Shown: positions 13,420 through 29,978 of the stretch, piece by piece
How the letters are laid out: each line of letters begins with the position of its first letter
Position numbering within the stretch: the stretch's first letter is position 1
Source of the DNA: a bacterium EF100-94H03 bin56
GTDB taxonomy: Bacteria > Pseudomonadota > Alphaproteobacteria > SP197
DNA: 64,000 nucleotides
Assembly: GCA_002238685.1 (NCBI GenBank)
Contig: MPMV01000020.1
Location: 1-64,000, forward strand
Direction of reading: 5' to 3'
The notes under the pieces: generated by a model
Database searches by the model: none
The model's input: only the letters and a program-made list of their open reading frames with translations
What the model was told of the DNA's origin: nothing
Made by a program: the position numbers and the translations under genes

Positions 13420-14712
13420 TCAGAAACTCTCAAGATAGCGTTCGGTCTCGATGTCCGTGACAACGTCGGCAACGAAATCCCGCTCCCGTTCAGCCTGGTT
13501 CACGAGAATTTCGAGCCGGTCGGCTCCCAGAAGGTCGAGCAGGAAGCCCGAGTCCCGTGCCTTGACGATGGCGACGTCAATGGTCGTCGGCAACACATCG
13601 TAGCCTGTCGCGACATAGGCATTTCCGACATGGGGCGGGGTCGGTTCGAGGCCCTGTTCGATCCCGTCGAGTCCTGCGGCAATCTGCGAGGCGAACAGAT
13701 AATAGGGATTGCAGTCGGCTGACCCGTCGCGCACTTCGATCCGAAGGGTCTGCGGAGAATGGCCGATGATGCGTATCCCGGTCGACCGGTTGTCGTATCC
13801 CCACGAATTGTTGACAGGGCTGAAACTCTCGGGACGCCGGCGCCGGTAGGCGTTCGGGGTTGTCGAGCCGATCAGCGCCGTTTCCGCCATTCTCATCTGT
13901 ATCCCTGCGAGATAGGAGAGCCCCGTTCGGGAAAGCGCCCCGCCTTCGTCGTGGAAGACGGCCTTGCCGTCCTGCCAGAGCGAGTGGTGAAGGTGAAATC
14001 CGCTGCCGGACTCGCCGGTGATGGGCTTGGCCATGAAGGTGGCGAGATAGCCTTGCGAATGGGCGATCTGTTTCACCAGGCCCCTGAAGGCGACAGTCCT
14101 GTCGGCCGTTTCCAGGGCCTCGCCGTACTCGATGTTCACCTCGACCTGACCCGCGGCATACTCCGGATTCGACTGCTCGACCGGGATGCCGACGTCGTTG
14201 AGATGACGCCGTATCGGTCCGACGACATGTTCGAGCTCGGCGGCCCGTGTCAGGTTGTAGACCTGAATCCCCCGGTCCCGCGGACGCTTGGTCTCCGGAT
14301 CCAGGAGATAGAATTCGAGCTCGCTGCCGATCTTGACCTCGAACCCCATCGCCGAAGCCCGTTCGAGAACGTCGAGGAGAACGCCGCGTGGATCGATCGG
14401 AACGGGCCTGTGATCCGCATCCTCGACTCGTCCCATGCAGAAGGCGACGCCCTCCTCCCAGGGCAGGCGCCAGACCTTGCCGAAAGGAAACATGTGGCAG
14501 TCGTGATAGCCGGTTTCCATGTTGCAGTAGGGGGTGTCCCAGACGTCGCATGTCATGTCGATCGCGAAGATGGCGGCCGACAGGGCAATGCCACTTTCAC
14601 GAACGACCGGCCAACGCGATGCCGGTACCCGCTTTCCCCTGAGAATCCCGTTGAGGTCGCCTGCGCCCATGGAGACGGTATGGATGCCTTCAGGCAGTAC
14701 AAATTGGCCCAC
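13420..14712 (-). CDS. glutamine synthetase family ligase, PuuA/GlnA-like
   Basis: 430 residues from a GTG at 14712 preceded by GAGGGAGAAGGC. The frame is open far upstream but only overlaps the permease genes there. Family motifs: GSELEFYLLD (metal Glu), ESNP-like EQSNPEYAAGQVEVNIEYG, HLHHSLW after GSGF, and the ATP-phosphate stretch RRRPESFSPVNNSWGYDNRS. A 430-residue protein beside a polyamine-type importer fits the gamma-glutamylpolyamine synthetase branch better than the housekeeping enzyme. It would ligate glutamate to an imported amine. The precise substrate is inferred. Confidence 0.9.
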   Translation of the reverse strand: MGQFVLPEGIHTVSMGAGDLNGILRGKRVPASRWPVVRESGIALSAAIFAIDMTCDVWDTPYCNMETGYHDCHMFPFGKVWRLPWEEGVAFCMGRVEDADHRPVPIDPRGVLLDVLERASAMGFEVKIGSELEFYLLDPETKRPRDRGIQVYNLTRAAELEHVVGPIRRHLNDVGIPVEQSNPEYAAGQVEVNIEYGEALETADRTVAFRGLVKQIAHSQGYLATFMAKPITGESGSGFHLHHSLWQDGKAVFHDEGGALSRTGLSYLAGIQMRMAETALIGSTTPNAYRRRRPESFSPVNNSWGYDNRSTGIRIIGHSPQTLRIEVRDGSADCNPYYLFASQIAAGLDGIEQGLEPTPPHVGNAYVATGYDVLPTTIDVAIVKARDSGFLLDLLGADRLEILVNQAERERDFVADVVTDIETERYLESF

Positions 14713-14753
14713 TTCGCCTTCTCCCTCTTCAAAGGCCCTGCAACGCCGACCGC

Positions 14754-15614
14754 TCAACGTATCTCTGGCTTCCTGGAAAGGATGTAGATCGACACCCCGA
14801 CGATCAGCATCGAGGCAAAGATGACACAGGAACCGATCGCATTGATCTCCGGGGTGATGCCCTGGCGCATCATGGACCAGATGTACATCGGAAGCGTGTT
14901 GGTGTTCCCGTTGATGAAATAGGTCAGCGCAAGCTCGTCGAACGACACGATCAGGATGATCATGCAGGAGCCGATCAGCGTCGTCCTGATGTTGGGCAGC
15001 GTCACGTACCAGAATGTCTCGAGCGGCGTCGCTCCGAGATCGGCCGACGCCTCCTCGATGCGGCGGTCGAAGTAGGTCAGGCGCGCAAAGAGATTCGCCA
15101 CCACGATCGATGACATGAGTGTTCCATGGCCGATCATGATGGTGTGAAGCCCCAGACTGACGCCCCAGAAAGTAAAGTAGTTGAGAAGGCATATGCCCAG
15201 CGTCAGGGCCGGAAGGGAGATCGGCATCAGCACGATCCGCTGCAGCGCGACCTTTCCGGGGAAATCCCAGCGCATCAGCGCGAAAGCCGTGGGGATGCCC
15301 ACGGCATTGGCGATGATGACGGCCGCGAAGGCGACAACGATGCTGTTGAAGAGCGCCTCCATCATGAAGGCGTTCTGGAAGGCCTTTTCGTACCACGAGA
15401 ACGTGAAGCCGGTCAGCGGAAACACGGTCAGGTCGTTCGTGTTGAAACTGAACACCATCAGGACGATCAGGGGCAGATAGAGGAAGACGAGCGAACAGCA
15501 TGCCAGGATCATCACGAAAGAGGTCGTCGCCGATGTCGGCTTCTTCCTCCTTTCCGGGAGAATCGAACGGGCTCCCGGAACCGAAACCCCCGTCATTGTC
15601 GAAACAAGAGCCAT
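14754..15614 (-). CDS. ABC transporter permease, PotC-like
   Basis: 286 residues with about six hydrophobic segments (first FVMILACCSLVFLYLPLIVL). The permease EAA loop reads EEASADLGATPLETFWYVTL. It is the second permease of a spermidine/putrescine-type importer, moving substrate across the inner membrane. It starts nine bases after the PotB-like gene ends and is followed 41 bases later by the glutamine-synthetase-like gene. Confidence 0.92.
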   Translation of the reverse strand: MALVSTMTGVSVPGARSILPERRKKPTSATTSFVMILACCSLVFLYLPLIVLMVFSFNTNDLTVFPLTGFTFSWYEKAFQNAFMMEALFNSIVVAFAAVIIANAVGIPTAFALMRWDFPGKVALQRIVLMPISLPALTLGICLLNYFTFWGVSLGLHTIMIGHGTLMSSIVVANLFARLTYFDRRIEEASADLGATPLETFWYVTLPNIRTTLIGSCMIILIVSFDELALTYFINGNTNTLPMYIWSMMRQGITPEINAIGSCVIFASMLIVGVSIYILSRKPEIR

Positions 15615-15623
15615 TCCGATCTC

Positions 15624-16493
15624 CTATTCGATGTTCACCTTGCCAACCCGTTCGGCCTGGTTGGAAGCGCTGAGAAGGATCACGAAGATCACGAGCAGAA
15701 CGACGGTGATGGCCGCGCCGAGCGGCCAGTTGAGCGCCATGCCGTACTGGGTCAGCACGACGTTCGCGATCATGTTGGCGGACGGGCCGCCTACGAGGAT
15801 CGGCGACACGAAGTCTCCCACGGCAAGGCAGAACGCCAGTGTCCAGCCGGCAATGATGCCGGGAATGGCCAGGCGCAGTGTCACGTTCAGGAACGTATGG
15901 AACGAGTTGGCGCCGAGGTCGCGGGATGCCTCTATGAGGCTTCTCGGAATCTTGTCCAGGGACGAATAGATGGGCAGCATCATCAACGGCATGCAGATAT
16001 AGCCGATAGTGATGACCATGGCGTACTGGTTGTAGAGGAAGAACATGACCGGCTCGTCGACGATGCCCAGCCACAGCAAGGCCGAATTCAACACGCCTTC
16101 CGTGCCGAGGATTGTCTTCCAGGTATAGGAACGAAGAACGTAGGAGACCCACAGCGGTATCAGCATCCCCATGTAGAGGAGCAGTTTGACGGCCCTGCTC
16201 TCCACCTTGAAGACGATGAAATAGACCAGCGGGAAACCGATCAGGAACGAGAACAAACAGCTCATCAACGCGATTCTGACGCTCCGGGCAATCACCACGA
16301 CATACTGGTTGTTGGTCAGGAGTTCCTCGTAGTTGCCGAACTGGAAATCCGGACGGAAGGTGGGAAATTCCTGGGTCCAGAAACTCATGGAGGCCATGAC
16401 ACCGAGGGACCCCAGGACGATTCCGCCCCACCACAGGGCGGGAAGCGAGAAGACAGCGAAAAAGTCGAGGGCGGTCCTCAGCCGGCGGCTCAT
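15624..16493 (-). CDS. ABC transporter permease, PotB-like
   Basis: 289 residues with six predicted membrane segments (first FFAVFSLPALWWGGIVLGSL). The EAA loop reads IEASRDLGANSFHTFLNVTL. First permease of the polyamine-type importer. Three bases separate its ATG from the stop of the ATPase gene. Confidence 0.92.
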   Translation of the reverse strand: MSRRLRTALDFFAVFSLPALWWGGIVLGSLGVMASMSFWTQEFPTFRPDFQFGNYEELLTNNQYVVVIARSVRIALMSCLFSFLIGFPLVYFIVFKVESRAVKLLLYMGMLIPLWVSYVLRSYTWKTILGTEGVLNSALLWLGIVDEPVMFFLYNQYAMVITIGYICMPLMMLPIYSSLDKIPRSLIEASRDLGANSFHTFLNVTLRLAIPGIIAGWTLAFCLAVGDFVSPILVGGPSANMIANVVLTQYGMALNWPLGAAITVVLLVIFVILLSASNQAERVGKVNIE

Positions 16494-16496
16494 CGT

Positions 16497-17600
16497 TCAG
16501 GCCTCGCCTGAAGCATCCACGTGACCGTCGAACAAAACGACCGAATCGGGATCGACATGAAGTTCGATCCGATCGCCGACCTTGGGAATCTCCCCCCGTG
16601 CGCCTTTCCATGACAGGGGCGTGATCATCGACAGCGGGGCCTTTGCTCCGACATCGACAAGGATCTGCATTGCTTCTCCCCGGTAGAAACTCTCGGTCAC
16701 GCGGCCGCTGAAACTGCTCGCCGTGATCTCCCGCCGATGAAGGCCGATCCGCTCGGGCCTGATGGACATGGTGATGGGTTTGCCGACCTCGGCGCTCCGG
16801 CCGTTTGACGCCACCTCAAGGCTGGCATCGCCGAAAGCGATTCGCAGGGAACCGCCGGTCGCCGACTCAACCCTGCCGGGAACAAGGTTCGATGCACCCA
16901 GGAAACTCGCGACATAGGGTGTTGCGGGATGGTTGTAGAGGTCTTCCGGCGACCCCGACTCCACCACGACACCATCTTTCATCACGATGATCTCGTCGGA
17001 CATTACGAGAGCTTCCGCCTGATCGTGTGTCACCATGAGGAAGGTCAGGCCCGCTCTCTGCTGCAGTTCCCTAAGCTCGATCTGCATCGTGGCGCGAAGC
17101 TCGGCGTCGAGCGCGGAAAGCGGTTCATCGAGAAGGAGGACCTTGGGGTGCCGTACTAGGGCCCGAGCCAGGGCCACACGCTGCCTCTGGCCGATGGAAA
17201 GTTCATGGGGTTTCGACCGGGCCTTGTGACCCAGCTGGATCATGTCCAGCGCTTTTTTCAGTTCCTTCGCCGCATCGAGTTTCCTGCCGTCGCCGAAACG
17301 CAGGCCGTAGCCGATGTTCTCCTCGACCGTCATGTGCGGGAACAGCGCAAAGTCCTGGAACATTACGTTGAGCTTGCGGGTGTGGGGCGGGAAATCTGTG
17401 ATGTCCTCGCCGTCCAGGAGAATGTGGCCGCGATCCGGATATTCGAAACCACCGATCATGCGCAGGGTCGTCGTCTTGCCGCAACCTGACGGCCCCAGCA
17501 TCGTCACGTATCTGCCGTGCTTGACACTCAGGCTGAGATTGTCGACCGCGGTCAGAGTGCCGAAGGTCTTCGTGACCTGCTGCAGTTCGATGATGTCCAC
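16497..17600 (-). CDS. ABC transporter ATP-binding protein, PotA-like
   Basis: 367 residues from a GTG at 17600, chosen because GAGGAG sits six bases upstream and it gives the usual MDIIELQQVTKTFG start. Walker A GPSGCGKTT, signature LSIGQRQRVALARAL, Walker B VLLLDEPLSALD, H-loop THD, and a C-terminal TOBE-like region (SIRPERIGLHRRE onward), as in PotA. It energises the two permeases downstream. Confidence 0.93.
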   Translation of the reverse strand: MDIIELQQVTKTFGTLTAVDNLSLSVKHGRYVTMLGPSGCGKTTTLRMIGGFEYPDRGHILLDGEDITDFPPHTRKLNVMFQDFALFPHMTVEENIGYGLRFGDGRKLDAAKELKKALDMIQLGHKARSKPHELSIGQRQRVALARALVRHPKVLLLDEPLSALDAELRATMQIELRELQQRAGLTFLMVTHDQAEALVMSDEIIVMKDGVVVESGSPEDLYNHPATPYVASFLGASNLVPGRVESATGGSLRIAFGDASLEVASNGRSAEVGKPITMSIRPERIGLHRREITASSFSGRVTESFYRGEAMQILVDVGAKAPLSMITPLSWKGARGEIPKVGDRIELHVDPDSVVLFDGHVDASGEA

Positions 17601-17626
17601 GCCTGGCTCCTCGATCGCGTATCGGC

Positions 17627-17660
17627 CCCGGGCAGGCGATGAAAATGTCTCCTGTCCGGG
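17627..17660 (-). promoter_or_regulatory. stem-loop between binding-protein and ATPase genes
   Basis: Two 10-base arms (17627-17636 and 17651-17660) pair with one G-T wobble around a 14-base loop. They lie 36 bases after the potD-like stop and 26 bases before the potA-like start. There is no T-run. Such hairpins after a binding-protein gene commonly stabilise that part of the mRNA or lower downstream expression, so the binding protein is made in excess. The function here is inferred. Confidence 0.5.
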
Positions 17661-17695
17661 ACCGGATTCCGCAAACGCAAGCCGTGGACGGCGGG

Positions 17696-18760
17696 CTACT
17701 CCGCCGCCTTCACGGCATTCCACACTTCAATCATCTTCGCGGGCCGGGCGGGTTCGCGCCACAGCACGAGGCTATCGATGTATTCGGGCTGATGCTGATG
17801 ACGGCCGGTAAACTCCTCCTCCGACATGCAGGATTCCACCAGTGGACTGGCTGCCGAGAAACCCGAGAACAGGGACATGCCGCACTGCCCCTCGGGGCTC
17901 GCCGCAAAGTTGAGCCACTGGTAAACGCACTCCATGTCCTGGGCGTCCGTCGTGATCTGCCAGCCGTCCATCCAGCCGTCAGCGAGTTCCTTGGGCAGGT
18001 ATTCCACCATGGGAATTCCCTTGGCCTGCAGTTCGGCGACCTGGTATCCGCCCCACGTGTTCGAAATCCAGATCTCGCCGTTGGCGGCGAGGTTGATGTG
18101 ATCGCCCGCCTGAGACCAGTAGGTCCGCAACAGCTTCTTCTGTTCAATGAGTTTCTGCTGGACTTCGGCCAGTTGTTCGTCCGAGAGATCGAAGACGTTG
18201 ACATCGGTGCCGAAGAGATAGCGCGCAACGGGATAGATGTTCGACTTGTCATCCCACAGGCTGATCCTGCCTGCATACTTCTCGTCGAAGATCACGGCAA
18301 TCGAATCAAGTTCCTCGTCCACCTTGTCTGTTCGATACATCATCGGGATCGATCCCCACGCGTTGGGCTGCGCAATGACCGTTCCGTCTTCCAAGGTTAT
18401 GCCCGGGTTGTTCTGAAGGTTCTCATAGAGATTCTGGAAGTGCTCCAGCTTGCCGGTGTCGATGGGCGCGATCTTCCCCAGTTTCCAGAGGATTGTCGTG
18501 GTATCGACTGACGGTGAGACCAGGTCGTACCGGTCGCCGGCGGCGATCTTCGCGATGATCTCGTCGTTCGAGCCGACCAGAGTGGGTTTGAGTTCACAGC
18601 CCGTCGCTTCCTGCCAGTCAGCCGTAAAGCTCTCGTCGGCATAGGAGACCCATGTCAGGAGACTGAGTTCGCCGGCATTTGCCTGGACTGCGGCAAGGCT
18701 GGTGGCGGCACCGAGCGCGCATGCTGCAGCAAGCTGCTTGAGTTTGGTATTCCTTGACAT
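17696..18760 (-). CDS. periplasmic polyamine-type ABC substrate-binding protein, PotD-like
   Basis: 354 residues from the ATG at 18760. A signal peptide is clear (MSRNTKLKQLAAACALGA, ending near VQANA before GELSLLTW). The mature protein has PotD/PotF-family text: ELSLLTWVSYADESF, AAGDRYDLVSPSVDTT, NAWGSIPMMYRTDKVDE and CVYQWLNFAASPE. First gene of the importer operon. The exact ligand (putrescine, spermidine or another amine) cannot be read off. Confidence 0.92.
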   Translation of the reverse strand: MSRNTKLKQLAAACALGAATSLAAVQANAGELSLLTWVSYADESFTADWQEATGCELKPTLVGSNDEIIAKIAAGDRYDLVSPSVDTTTILWKLGKIAPIDTGKLEHFQNLYENLQNNPGITLEDGTVIAQPNAWGSIPMMYRTDKVDEELDSIAVIFDEKYAGRISLWDDKSNIYPVARYLFGTDVNVFDLSDEQLAEVQQKLIEQKKLLRTYWSQAGDHINLAANGEIWISNTWGGYQVAELQAKGIPMVEYLPKELADGWMDGWQITTDAQDMECVYQWLNFAASPEGQCGMSLFSGFSAASPLVESCMSEEEFTGRHQHQPEYIDSLVLWREPARPAKMIEVWNAVKAAE

Positions 18761-22898: not shown

Positions 22899-23753
22899 AT
22901 GGCGAAAACCGGCAACATCCGGCCTCTGGCAGGTCATATCGGCGCGGTAGTCGCCGGGATCGATCTCAGGCGCCTTGACGGCGGCACGGTCGCGGCCCTG
23001 CGCGAGGCATGGCTCGAACACAAGGTCCTGTTCTTTCCGCGCCAGGAGTTGTCGGCCGATGAACTGGTGCGTGCGGCGTCCTGCTTCGGCGAGGTCGATC
23101 CGCCGCATTCCGGACTTGAACACCACCCCGACAATTGCGCCGTGATGATCGCGGCGAGCCGCAAGGGGCATGGGGGCGGCAAGTACAACGCCATCTGGCA
23201 CAGCGACGTCACATTCGACGAGAAGCCGCCGGCAGCCTCGATGCTTCAGGCCGAGACCCTGCCCCCTGTGGGCGGAGACACACTCTTCACGTCAATGGAG
23301 GCGGCCTTCGACGCACTGTCACAGCGCCTGAAGACGGCAATCGAGGGCCTGGAGGCATTCCATGATGGCATTCCCAACTTCACCCCCTACCTTCTCGATC
23401 CGGGTACGCCGGACGGACCCCGGCGTCTGGACAATCTCAAGCGCGAGCACGCCGGATGCGTTCACCCGGTGGTGGTGCGCCACCCCGAGACAGGCCGCCG
23501 GGCGCTCTTCGTCAACCGTGCCTTCACCCAGCGGATCCTCGGACTGCCGGACATCGAGAGCCGCGGAGTGCTGAATCTCCTGATCGAGCATTGCGAACAG
23601 GCGACATTCCAGGTTCGCTGGTCCTGGTCGAGAGGCGATGTCGCGATCTGGGACAACCGCTCTACCATGCACTACGCCGCCTTCGATTATGGTCGCCATG
23701 ACCGGATCATGCACCGCGTGACCCTGAAGGGCGCCCGTCCCCTGGCGGCATGA
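22899..23753 (+). CDS. TauD/TfdA family Fe(II)/2-oxoglutarate dioxygenase
   Basis: 284 residues. Iron ligands His101-x-Asp103 (IWHSDVTFDEKPP) and distal His258 (STMHYAAFDYG), with the 2-oxoglutarate-binding Arg273 in MHRVTL, as in TauD. It oxidises a small organic substrate with O2 and 2-oxoglutarate; the substrate is unknown (taurine, other sulfonates, herbicide-like ethers and quaternary amines occur in the family). A decayed second copy follows immediately, so the locus has undergone tandem duplication. Confidence 0.92.
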   Translation: MAKTGNIRPLAGHIGAVVAGIDLRRLDGGTVAALREAWLEHKVLFFPRQELSADELVRAASCFGEVDPPHSGLEHHPDNCAVMIAASRKGHGGGKYNAIWHSDVTFDEKPPAASMLQAETLPPVGGDTLFTSMEAAFDALSQRLKTAIEGLEAFHDGIPNFTPYLLDPGTPDGPRRLDNLKREHAGCVHPVVVRHPETGRRALFVNRAFTQRILGLPDIESRGVLNLLIEHCEQATFQVRWSWSRGDVAIWDNRSTMHYAAFDYGRHDRIMHRVTLKGARPLAA

Positions 23754-23806
23754 CGTCCTCGCCCGCGTTGGTGGGTCTGCAGGATATGGGGCCGGACATG
23801 GTGGCG

Positions 23807-24220
23807 ATGGGTAACATCCGTCCCCTGACCGATCATATCTGCGCGGAGATCTCCGGAATCGGTCTCAGGCACCCTGACGACGGCACGGTCGCGGCGCTTG
23901 CGCGAGGCTTGGCTCGAACACAAGGTCCTGTTCTTTCCACGCCGGGGAACGTCGGCTGACGAACTGGCGCATGCGGCCTCGCGGTTCGCCGACATCGAGC
24001 CGCCGCACCCCGAATCAGGGCGCCCGGCGCCAATCGTGGCTTCACCAGTCGGATTGCCGGATATCGAGAGCCGCGGAGTGCTGAACCTTCTTCCTTCTCG
24101 AGCACTGCGAGAAGGTGTCATTCCAGGCGTGCTGGACCTGGTCGAAGGGTGACGTGGCATTCCGGGACAACCGCTGCACGTACGCAGCCAGGGACTACGG
24201 TGCGAAAGAACGGGTCACAC
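23807..24220 (+). pseudogene. decayed tandem copy of the TauD/TfdA dioxygenase gene
   Basis: The text MGNIRPLTDHICAEISGIGL, WLEHKVLFFPR, PDIESRGVLNLL and WSKGDVAFRDNRCTYAARDYG parallels the intact upstream gene (GNIRPLAGHIGAVVAGIDL, WLEHKVLFFPR, PDIESRGVLNLL, WSRGDVAIWDNRSTMHYAAFDYG). These segments sit in different frames. A base insertion near 23900 and changes near 24095-24105 shift the frame. About 130 codons containing the HxD iron site are missing between 24018 and 24050, and the distal His is lost. Its 3' end runs into the stop of the convergent cupin gene. Confidence 0.85.
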
Positions 24221-25057
24221 CCTCTCGCTGCCTGACGCCGGGCCTGGAGGCAGCGCATCGCCGCTGGCGGCCAGGGTGCCCTCGGCATCGTGCTGTTCGT
24301 CTCCCGTCAGCGCCGGGCAGAAGACGGACAGCAGGCGGAGGTCACTGCGGGCATGCATGCTGTGGCGGTCCTCGGGACCGACGCAGTACATCATTCCCGG
24401 CTCCATTTTCCAGGTCTCCCCGGAGCCAAGGTCCGTTACCTCTCCCGTGCCGTCGAGAACATAGTTCGCCTCCCGATGGTGCCTGTACCACAGGACATTG
24501 CGGCTGCCCGCCGCGAGGCGGACGTCACTCAGGGAGAACCCGACACGATCGTCGCGCAGCAGCATGCGCACCGTCGTTGCACTGCCGCCGGCCACGGAAA
24601 GCTGGCGACCCTGGCGAACAAGATCGTCGACGGTCCTCACGAACATGCGCTCCCTTCCTACGGGAACAGGACCGGTCGGCGGGTAGGAGCCGTCGCTGTC
24701 GTGTGCCTCGTCCCCGGCAAGGGGCGGATTGAAGACACTGACGACATGCAGGTCGTCGTCGGGGTCGACGAGGTGACGATCCTTCGGTCCGACCGTGTAG
24801 AGGGTGCCTGGAGCCAGAGGCCAGCTCCGGTCCCGTTCGAGGTCACGCACCGTGCCCCGACCGGCAACGATGTAGTTCGCTTCCCAGTGGTGCCTGTACC
24901 ACAGGACGCTGGACATGCCGTCGGCGACCCGCACATCCGACATGGTGAAACCCATGCCGTCGGGAATGGTGAGAAAGCGTGTCGAGCGGGCCCTGCCTTC
25001 ACACAGGACCTTTTCGGCGCCGGCACGGCGCCGCTCGTTGAGCGTACGAACGAACAT
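24215..25057 (-). CDS. tandem ectoine-synthase-like cupin protein
   Basis: 280 residues made of two EctC-like modules (about 1-130 and 138-270). Each has the EctC order: MFVRT start; WYRHH followed by the metal Glu (Glu59 / Glu196); PGTLYTVGPKDRH or PGMMYCVGPEDRH (Tyr87, His95 / Tyr224, His232); then a [SV]F.P.L[AT]GDE.HD..G ending. Ordinary ectoine synthases are a single module of about 130 residues. Both halves keep the residues known to hold iron in EctC. No ectA or ectB lies in the window, so ectoine synthesis is not implied. The Rieske oxygenase gene precedes it by one base, so they are probably co-transcribed. Confidence 0.85.
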   Translation of the reverse strand: MFVRTLNERRRAGAEKVLCEGRARSTRFLTIPDGMGFTMSDVRVADGMSSVLWYRHHWEANYIVAGRGTVRDLERDRSWPLAPGTLYTVGPKDRHLVDPDDDLHVVSVFNPPLAGDEAHDSDGSYPPTGPVPVGRERMFVRTVDDLVRQGRQLSVAGGSATTVRMLLRDDRVGFSLSDVRLAAGSRNVLWYRHHREANYVLDGTGEVTDLGSGETWKMEPGMMYCVGPEDRHSMHARSDLRLLSVFCPALTGDEQHDAEGTLAASGDALPPGPASGSERV

Positions 25058-28078: not shown

Positions 28079-28096
28079 ATCGGGAGGATGAGGAAC

Positions 28097-28939
28097 ATGA
28101 ACACCGGGCAATGCCTGTGCGGCGGTGTCACCTGGGAACTCGCGGCCGAGCCGTTCCAGGCGTTCAATTGTCACTGCAAGTTGTGCCGCAAGGCCCATGG
28201 AACGGCCTTCGGAACCTACTGGTTCGTGCGCCCGGAGGAGATTCGTCTGACAGGCGGCGAGGACATCACGGTCAGTTACCGTTCGTCCCACATGCTGGTC
28301 CGGAAGTTTTGCGGAGTGTGCGGCTCGGTGGTCCCCTATGGCGGCGACGTCGGTGACATCGCCGTCGCGCCGGGTGGCTGTCATGACGACGGCAAGCCAT
28401 CGGACTGCAACGTCTTCGTTCCCCATGGTGCGCCCTGGCACCGGGTGACGGGAGATCTGCCCTGTCATGACGACTACCCGCTGGAAACGGGCTATCCGAG
28501 GGTCGAGGAAGATCCGGTGCCGCCACCGCCACCGGGGATCGTGCGCGGTTGGTGCATGTGCGGTAGCGTCGCCTTCCAGACGACCGATTCCTACATGAGG
28601 GCCTGGAACTGCCATTGCAGCCGCTGTCGGCGGGGCCGCGCAGCGGCCCACTCCTCGGATGCCCTGATCGACCTCCGGCACCTGCAGTTCACGCAAGGCG
28701 AGGACCACCTGAAGAGCTTCCGCGTACCGGGCGCCCGCTACTACACGCAGGTCTTTTGCGATCTGTGCGGATCGAAGATGCCGCATGTCGACCCGGAGCA
28801 CGGGGTCGCGATCGTGCCCCTTGGCATTCTCGAGGATGATCCCGGTGTCAGACCCGGCATCCACGTCTTTGTCGCCTCCATGGCCGGGTGGCACGAGATC
28901 ACCGACGACCTGGAGCAGCATGACGGGGCGCCTGTCTGA
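28097..28939 (+). CDS. protein with two GFA (glutathione-dependent formaldehyde-activating) domains
   Basis: 280 residues; ATG 28097 preceded by GAGG is preferred over ATG 28088. Two zinc modules of the GFA family: first CLCGGVTW, FNCHCKLCRKAHG and FCGVCGS; second WCMCGSVAFQ, WNCHCSRCRRGRA and FCDLCGSKMPH, joined by a proline-rich linker (PPPPPGI). GFA proteins are linked to formaldehyde and glutathione adducts, though most are uncharacterised. Next to oxygenases that could release formaldehyde by demethylation this is suggestive, but unproven. Convergent with the regulator gene. Confidence 0.88.
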   Translation: MNTGQCLCGGVTWELAAEPFQAFNCHCKLCRKAHGTAFGTYWFVRPEEIRLTGGEDITVSYRSSHMLVRKFCGVCGSVVPYGGDVGDIAVAPGGCHDDGKPSDCNVFVPHGAPWHRVTGDLPCHDDYPLETGYPRVEEDPVPPPPPGIVRGWCMCGSVAFQTTDSYMRAWNCHCSRCRRGRAAAHSSDALIDLRHLQFTQGEDHLKSFRVPGARYYTQVFCDLCGSKMPHVDPEHGVAIVPLGILEDDPGVRPGIHVFVASMAGWHEITDDLEQHDGAPV

Positions 28940-28964: not shown

Positions 28965-29978
28965 TCAGGGTCGTGCGGTGGGTGTCAGGCGCTTGTAGTG
29001 CAGGTGCTGGTAGATCGAGACCTCGATCGACATGACGCCGTCCAGGGGCCGGATGTCGTTGTCGACGATGGCCAGAAGTTCCGCCTCGTCGCGACAGGCT
29101 ATCTCGGAGAAGATGTCGAACCGTCCGGCGCAGATTGCGACATAGGTGACATGGGAGAGACTTGACAGGCCGTCGGCGACGTCGCGCGCCGGAACGCCGT
29201 TGCCGACACGCACGGCGACCCAGGCGACGGTTCCGTAGCCCAGGCTCATCGGGTTGACGATGGCAATGACGCTGACGACACCGTCTTCGGCCATGCCGTT
29301 GAACCTGTTGCGGACCTGGGATTCCGAGATGCCGAGCCTGTCGGCCACCGCCTGCAGCGGCATGCGTCCGTTTTCCGACAGTGCCTTGACGATGTCGCGG
29401 TCCGTTCTGGCGAGGGTGCGCGGGACCACGCCTGCTTCCTGCAGGGACTTGCGCCGCGCCGCCCCGAAGTTTGCCAGCTGATAGTAGAGCGACAGATAGG
29501 GGAAACTCTCGATGGTCCGGATGCCGCCGATCGCGCCGATCCGGTTCTCGATCACATCCTGCAGTTCACGGCGGTCGCGACAGATGACTTCGGCGAAGAG
29601 GCCATAGCGGCCCGTGGCGACCACGACATAGTCGATGACGGCAACGGACAGCAGTTTTCTGGCCGTCTGCGAGGCCGGCGCGGCGGGGTCGAGGACAAGG
29701 CCGAGGAGGGCGGAGCTGTGATATCCAAGGGCGCGCGGATCGGTTACGGCGGCAATCTGGATGACTTCGGAATCTAGGAGGTGCCTCATCCGGCTGCGCA
29801 CGGTCTTCTCGGTGAGGCCCGTTGCCCTGGCGATCCGCGCGAAGGACCGCCGGCCATCCTCCTGGAGGTGTTCGACGATGGCGCGGTCAGAAGGATCGAG
29901 GGCCGGAGCCTGTCTGAGAAAGGCGCCCGGCAGCAAGGACGTCTCCACTGATGGCGGCCCCGACCTAGCGATCGACAA
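28965..29978 (-). CDS. tandem Lrp/AsnC family transcriptional regulator
   Basis: 337 residues, about twice the normal 150-160, built of two Lrp/AsnC units. Unit 1: helix-turn-helix DRAIVEHLQEDGRRSFARIA..TGLTEKTVRSRM, then an effector domain with GYHSSALLGLVLD. Unit 2: helix-turn-helix DRDIVKALSENGRMPLQAVA, GISESQVRNRFN, then GYGTVAWVAVRV. It likely senses a small metabolite and controls nearby catabolic genes. Its start overlaps the 3' end of the hydrolase gene by 14 bases. A 20-base palindrome at 30892-30911 in the divergent hydrolase/LLM region is a candidate operator. Confidence 0.9.
   Translation of the reverse strand: MSIARSGPPSVETSLLPGAFLRQAPALDPSDRAIVEHLQEDGRRSFARIARATGLTEKTVRSRMRHLLDSEVIQIAAVTDPRALGYHSSALLGLVLDPAAPASQTARKLLSVAVIDYVVVATGRYGLFAEVICRDRRELQDVIENRIGAIGGIRTIESFPYLSLYYQLANFGAARRKSLQEAGVVPRTLARTDRDIVKALSENGRMPLQAVADRLGISESQVRNRFNGMAEDGVVSVIAIVNPMSLGYGTVAWVAVRVGNGVPARDVADGLSSLSHVTYVAICAGRFDIFSEIACRDEAELLAIVDNDIRPLDGVMSIEVSIYQHLHYKRLTPTARP

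Follow-up and report, generated by a model that had tools for sequence, protein, structure and literature searches.

A two-module EctC-like gene

The window, the whole 64,000-nucleotide stretch of DNA analysed here, belongs to a genome of 4.5 Mb in 102 contigs that is 98% complete. It carries a gene for a protein in which two modules related to ectoine synthase (EctC) are fused in one chain, amid genes for oxygenases (Table 1). Pfam assigns the fusion protein to Ectoine_synth over two stretches (235.6 bits, E = 1.7e-70). In a search of the genome with the PF06339 profile, the C-terminal module (24269-24646, E = 7e-35) and the N-terminal module (24677-25057, E = 2e-33) are separate matches that share one open frame without stops.

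The fusion gene is a real gene with both halves under purifying selection. Compared with three syntenic relatives, its dN/dS is 0.15-0.20, and the values for the two separate halves (0.09-0.27) are similar. On the strength of the two HMM matches and of dN/dS ≤0.2 we rejected an artefact (a shadow ORF or a chance frame); the plus-strand ORF that overlaps the gene is itself the shadow frame.

Table 1. Features of the window around the fusion gene
Feature	Size or residues	Position	Strand	Remarks
Glutamine-synthetase-like gene with adjoining ABC transporter genes		13420-18760	-	includes TOBE-domain ATPase
TauD-type 2-oxoglutarate dioxygenase		22899-23753	+	PF02668; convergent with fusion gene
Broken fragment		23754-24160		remnant of second TauD gene
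EctC-EctC fusion gene	280 aa	24215-25057	-	ATG start; two PF06339 modules
C-terminal EctC-like module	aa 138-264	24266-24646	-	putative Fe ligands E196, Y224, H232
N-terminal EctC-like module	aa 1-127	24677-25057	-	putative Fe ligands E59, Y87, H95
Rieske non-haem iron oxygenase	390 aa	25059-26231	-	PF00355 + PF00848
PhyH-type 2-oxoglutarate dioxygenase	279 aa	26330-27169	-	PF05721; upstream of Rieske gene
GFA-GFA protein		28088-28939	+	two PF04828 stretches, an internal tandem fusion
AsnC/Lrp regulator		28965-29948	-	two HTH and two ligand-binding domains in one chain

Relationship to ectoine synthase

The proteins of solved structure nearest to the fusion are all EctC (5onm, 5onn and 5ono from Paenibacillus lautus, and 5bxx), with E-values down to 1e-25 for a single protein query. 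A profile of the family finds EctC at E = 2e-34, followed only by the dimethylsulfoniopropionate (DMSP) lyase DddK with a marginal E of 7e-4. By sequence comparison EctC is the sole strong match among solved structures, and identity as a plain sugar cupin is rejected for this reason. The sequence-only reading, which had taken the protein for two fused EctC-like cupins and had set this against kinship with plain sugar cupins, is borne out on both points.

The fusion has several properties of EctC (5bxx/5by5, 5onm/5onn/5ono): both halves belong to the PF06339 cupin family and retain the Glu57/Tyr84/His92 ligands, and Tyr52, Arg25, Phe106 and the C-terminal lid motif are kept. It differs in having two modules in a chain of 280 aa instead of a single module of ~130 aa, in substitutions at Trp21, His/Asn38, Thr40, Val59 and Cys104, in belonging to a separate clade, and in the genome that encodes it. 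This genome has no match to ectA, and nothing in it passes the cut-off for ectB (only generic class-III aminotransferases, the best at 177 bits vs 552), in agreement with the earlier observation that ectA and ectB are absent.

Against the NCBIfam ectoine synthase model PRK13290 the whole fusion protein scores 245 bits, passing the cut-off of 128 only through the sum of two modules, whereas the N half (123.7 bits) and the C half (126.2 bits) alone both fall below it; a Rhizobium orphan EctC, encoded away from an ect cluster, scores 167.5 bits. Annotation pipelines would name the fusion 'ectoine synthase'; the score per module, the pocket (see below) and the missing ectA and qualifying ectB argue against this name.

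The iron site and the substrate pocket

Residues are numbered as in P. lautus EctC, with roles taken from PMC6344544; counts refer to 40 N and 41 C halves, with 20 canonical EctC proteins for comparison. The two Glu/Tyr/His triads of the window's protein, correctly placed in the sequence-only reading, align with EctC Glu57/Tyr84/His92. Glu57 is kept in 37/40 N and 39/41 C halves, His92 in 36/40 and 41/41, and Tyr84 in 39/40 and 36/41; Tyr52, His55 and Phe106 are largely kept in both. With these ligands retained, both halves of the fusion would be expected to bind iron, and the loss of iron from both, considered in the same reading, is not what the alignment suggests. In one paralogue group (L005/L040) the N half carries E57K and H92Y and has probably lost iron.

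The remainder of the pocket is altered. Trp21, present in 19 of the 20 canonical proteins, is missing from both halves of the fusion, as first noticed from the sequence alone, and from 40/40 N and 40/41 C halves across the family. Thr40, invariant in the canonical set (20/20), occurs in none of the 81 halves, which have Val, Leu, Asn or Ala instead. Ser occupies position 38 in 27/40 N and 40/41 C halves; Asn stands in place of Val59 in 77/81, and Ser in place of Cys104 in 37/40 N and 39/41 C halves (76/81). Residue 56, beside the iron-binding Glu, is mostly Leu or Phe in canonical EctC and is Trp in 62/81 halves; the C half of the window's protein has R195 here. In the window the altered residues are S40, V42, N61 and S107 in the N module (with Y54, R27 and F109 kept) and S177, V179, N198 and S244 in the C module (with Y191, R164 and F246 kept), so that at the three positions 21, 38 and 40 both halves have no Trp, Ser and Val, respectively. 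Variation is lower among the C halves (Ser-Asp-Val) than among the N halves. The change thus extends beyond the single Trp originally noted, to further pocket positions and to a new Trp beside the iron-binding Glu in most members. Judging from the per-residue counts over 81 halves, the pocket is conserved on the side that would hold amide and iron, and remodelled on the side where, in EctC, the precursor of ectoine has its α-amino and carboxylate groups.

These substitutions bear on whether the fusion could be a genuine but atypical ectoine synthase whose substrate, N-acetyl-diaminobutyrate, is taken up from neighbours, the proposal made for the solitary EctC of Pseudomonas syringae. With that orphan an ectC mutant of H. 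elongata regained ectoine production (PMC5924519), and the fusion keeps the iron ligands, Tyr52, Glu57 and Phe106. On the other hand, the alanine mutant of Trp21 alone retains 9.7% of EctC activity (PMC6344544), and the fusion has Trp21, Thr40 and residue 38 all changed. In published orphans the Trp is in place or displaced by two residues (PMC6344544), as it is in the Rhizobium orphans but not in the fusion family, which is also a separate clade with each half below the ectoine synthase cut-off. We consider ectoine synthesis by the fusion very improbable. The orphan or solitary EctC-type proteins (PMC5924519; here the Rhizobium-type L009, L010, L057 and L058) resemble the fusion in being EctC-like, in lacking an ect cluster and in having Ser at 104, but they are single modules with the Trp kept (shifted), Thr40 kept and Cys38/Cys59, and lie nearer to canonical EctC in the tree than the fusion family does.

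Predicted structure

Structure prediction and phylogeny were among the checks proposed with the sequence-only reading. An AlphaFold2 model built on a 23-sequence family alignment has a mean pLDDT of 93.1 and a pTM of 0.91 and is bicupin-like, which points to bicupin packing of the two barrels. Foldseek comparison with the PDB gave the bicupins YxaG (quercetin dioxygenase), oxalate decarboxylase and the DUF861 group of (S)-ureidoglycine aminohydrolase (4e2q, 1rc6, 1sef). This last group superposes on the model over ~250 columns at 3.4-5.5 Å. These bicupins, like the model, have two cupin barrels per chain, and both barrels superpose (TM by target ~0.7), but identity is 10-15%, membership is not supported, and no sequence match to (S)-ureidoglycine aminohydrolase was found among solved sequences. 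What the Foldseek matches share with the predicted model is the general shape of bicupins, and no reaction can be read from them.

The best structural match among viral proteins is a 299-aa protein of Mycobacterium phage Gaia annotated as L-ectoine synthase (BFVD A0A068F3J9); the viral fold search otherwise gave only generic cupins.

Phylogeny, distribution and arrays

A maximum-likelihood tree of 81 modules, from an alignment of only 132 columns, is divided by a 99/91 branch. On one side lie all the halves of two-module proteins together with the single modules of L007 and L008; on the other lie canonical EctC, the Rhizobium-type orphans and other single modules. The fusion modules are thereby split from canonical EctC. 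L007 and L008 are single-module relatives with the fusion-type pocket signature, which L068 also carries. In topology tests, C halves as one clade were rejected (p = 0.009), N halves as one clade were not (p = 0.075), and exclusion of the single modules was borderline (p = 0.061). The result for the C halves speaks against one fusion that left clean clades of N and C halves; given this asymmetry and the short alignment, modules may have been exchanged, or fused or split more than once.

The fusion is not an isolated gene, as the sequence-only reading might have left it, but one of a whole, apparently undescribed family with multi-gene arrays. Close homologues (86-89% identical) are found in L003, L004 and L006 in the same Rieske-fusion-TauD order. 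Of the host's family, 15 of 16 genomes contain PF06339, and by the match table and ORF analysis 13 have paired modules within a single ORF; in a 385-genome sample of the class two-module genes are confined to that family and one other (G114, G217, G307, G383). Among 398 sampled genomes of the phylum, a set that like the class sample is not exhaustive, no two-module EctC was seen outside the window's own genome. Plasmid-borne two-module relatives were rejected as candidates, the tblastn matches being of single-module length with two pieces of the query on one copy. We found no report of a fused, tandem or bicupin EctC in the open-access literature, the scope of our search.

Arrays of four to six two-module genes are present at L039:35-3379, L060:1334-5297 and L005:5508-11722, the last with six genes in one 6-kb stretch; some halves in the arrays are degenerate. 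G307 has four two-module genes in a row. The arrays look like expansion of substrate range or ongoing birth and death of paralogues. At L050:7145-7958 two unfused single-module EctC-like genes (126 and 136 aa), one with a diverged pocket, are adjacent; this pair, from a different branch, is a possible picture of the step before fusion.

Gene neighbourhood

The Rieske oxygenase gene lies directly upstream of the fusion gene, with one base between them, and the two are likely on the same transcript. Its best solved match is the carnitine monooxygenase CntA (E = 1e-31), with the motif NFMESYH vs NYMECYH in CntA and the Glu aligned; matches to named NCBIfam models are far below their cut-offs. The gene adjoins the fusion also in L003, L004, L006 and L052. 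The PhyH-type dioxygenase, adjacent in L003 and L006 too, has no NCBIfam match, is not an ectoine hydroxylase by any model, and is nearest among solved structures to fungal natural-product dioxygenases. The TauD-type gene, found next to the fusion in L003, L004 and L006 as well, scores 261.6 bits against the NCBIfam taurine dioxygenase model (cut-off 313) and is nearest to TauD among solved structures. Where the window has one intact TauD gene and a remnant, L003 and L006 have two intact genes in tandem.

The adjacency to the Rieske gene, together with the N halves that lack iron ligands (E57K and H92Y in the L005/L040 group), could fit a non-catalytic or sensory cupin that binds a small molecule and regulates or scaffolds the oxygenase. 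Most members, however, have kept both iron sites, and selection is purifying; the repeated expansion into arrays is more in keeping with diversification of substrates than with a scaffold, and the protein has no DNA-binding part. Such a role for the family is doubtful.

Ten other loci of the host's family carry the fusion. Eight of them have two or three AstE/aspartoacylase (AspA)-like genes, five have a Rieske gene 72-78% identical to that of the window, and five have a GcvT-like gene; an SDR, a solute-binding protein and ABC transporters also occur. In the second host family there are Rieske neighbours (L043, L046) and GcvT proteins (L042 and L049, the latter with an FAO_M domain), and in L039 a four-gene array is followed by a sarcosine-oxidase-like DAO and SoxA-like subunits (fragments). 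The neighbours differ between the two families, and L041 and L045 have no such partner close by. In the window's own genome the AspA pair, next to a dipeptide-type ABC transporter, and the GcvT gene, 77% identical, are on two further contigs, so that the linkage in this lineage is one of homology; the GcvT gene adds little context because its neighbours are ordinary trp/pyrF/accD genes. The theme shared by the neighbourhoods is removal of N-methyl and N-acyl groups.

A cupin lyase, or a partner in demethylation, acting on an onium compound (betaine, carnitine or a DMSP-like compound) by elimination and not by amide chemistry would match the CntA-like Rieske neighbour, the scores of the GcvT-like neighbours with trimethylamine N-oxide (TMAO) demethylase and DMSP demethylase models, and the weak profile match to DddK. 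Against it, the metal-binding residues are the Glu/Tyr/His of EctC, DddK is marginal beside the EctC match, and the GcvT-like as well as the Rieske proteins lie far below the cut-offs of the named models. We regard this reading as improbable.

In Halomonas, ectoine is broken down by a ring hydrolase and then by DoeB, a deacylase of the AstE/aspartoacylase family (PMC3187862), and this pairing makes the association of an EctC-like cupin with AspA-like genes suggestive. AspA-like genes accompany the fusion as DoeB accompanies DoeA in the EutD/DoeA and EutE/DoeB pathway, but the fusion is unrelated to EutD, and the AspA-like proteins match no EutE model or other model of ectoine catabolism. The sequence-only reading had suggested that the fusion might run EctC chemistry in reverse. 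As a hydrolase it would then open the tetrahydropyrimidine ring of ectoine or a close cyclic amidine, and the neighbouring deacylase would finish. There is precedent in the hydrolysis of ectoine analogues of other ring sizes by H. elongata EctC (PMC6344544), the importers and deacylases nearby fit a catabolic setting, and the genome, besides having neither ectA nor a qualifying ectB, has no EutD over the cut-off (best 396 of 613 bits). Against this, nearly every module has changes at His/Asn38, Thr40 and Trp21, the residues with which EctC holds ectoine or its precursor, and at equilibrium ectoine is almost entirely in the cyclic form (PMC6344544). The models do not identify the AspA genes as EutE/DoeB, and Rieske and demethylase neighbours would serve no purpose if ectoine, which is unmethylated, were the substrate. 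Reversal on ectoine itself or its close relatives seems unlikely to us.

Further genes of the region attracted our attention. The fusion gene, the GFA-GFA gene and the AsnC/Lrp regulator are three duplicated-and-fused genes within 6 kb. The glutamine-synthetase-like protein of the window falls between the type III GS and γ-glutamylputrescine synthetase models, below their cut-offs, and a second glutamine-synthetase-like gene lies near an array in L067.

Proposed function

The reading that we prefer, tentatively and at somewhat less than even odds, is that the fusion is an iron bicupin with EctC-type chemistry, probably hydrolytic, that takes part in breaking down an imported amino-acid derivative with N-methyl and/or N-acyl groups. 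An orphan EctC-like cupin would have been duplicated and fused to give an iron-dependent bicupin. As in EctC, each intact iron site, together with the retained Tyr/Glu pair, would polarise an amide or amidine centre, and water would be added or removed, so that a ring is opened (the more likely case) or closed, or a C=N bond hydrolysed. Its substrate would be not ectoine but another small amino-acid derivative, one that is N-methylated and/or N-acylated. In related genomes one catabolic route may comprise an importer, the quaternary-amine-type Rieske oxygenase, aspartoacylase-type deacylases, and GcvT/DmdA-like or sarcosine-oxidase-like proteins that remove methyl groups. The halves are specialised, the C half having the more conserved site; the N half of the paralogue group that has lost its iron ligands may, because of that loss, be a scaffold or regulatory half. 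A different reaction on an amino-acid derivative had been suggested at the outset, and the altered pocket and the neighbours fit it.

More broadly, and with slightly greater reserve, the proteins may form a new family of EctC-derived iron bicupins that perform an undescribed amide or amidine opening, closing or hydrolysis in the breakdown of N-methylated or N-acylated zwitterions, with the arrays as substrate-tuned versions. EctC passes for the hallmark enzyme of ectoine producers, and the literature counts the function of its solitary relatives among the unresolved questions (PMC5924519, PMC6344544). Here one branch of EctC has kept the iron ligands, rebuilt the substrate side, become two-module, and multiplied beside oxygenases, demethylation proteins and deacylases; whole-protein scores would mislabel such fused proteins as 'ectoine synthase'. 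If the proposal is true, it would provide the first function for a branch of orphan EctC proteins, and the fusion loci offer a definite genomic setting for seeking a role unrelated to ectoine for an EctC-type enzyme.
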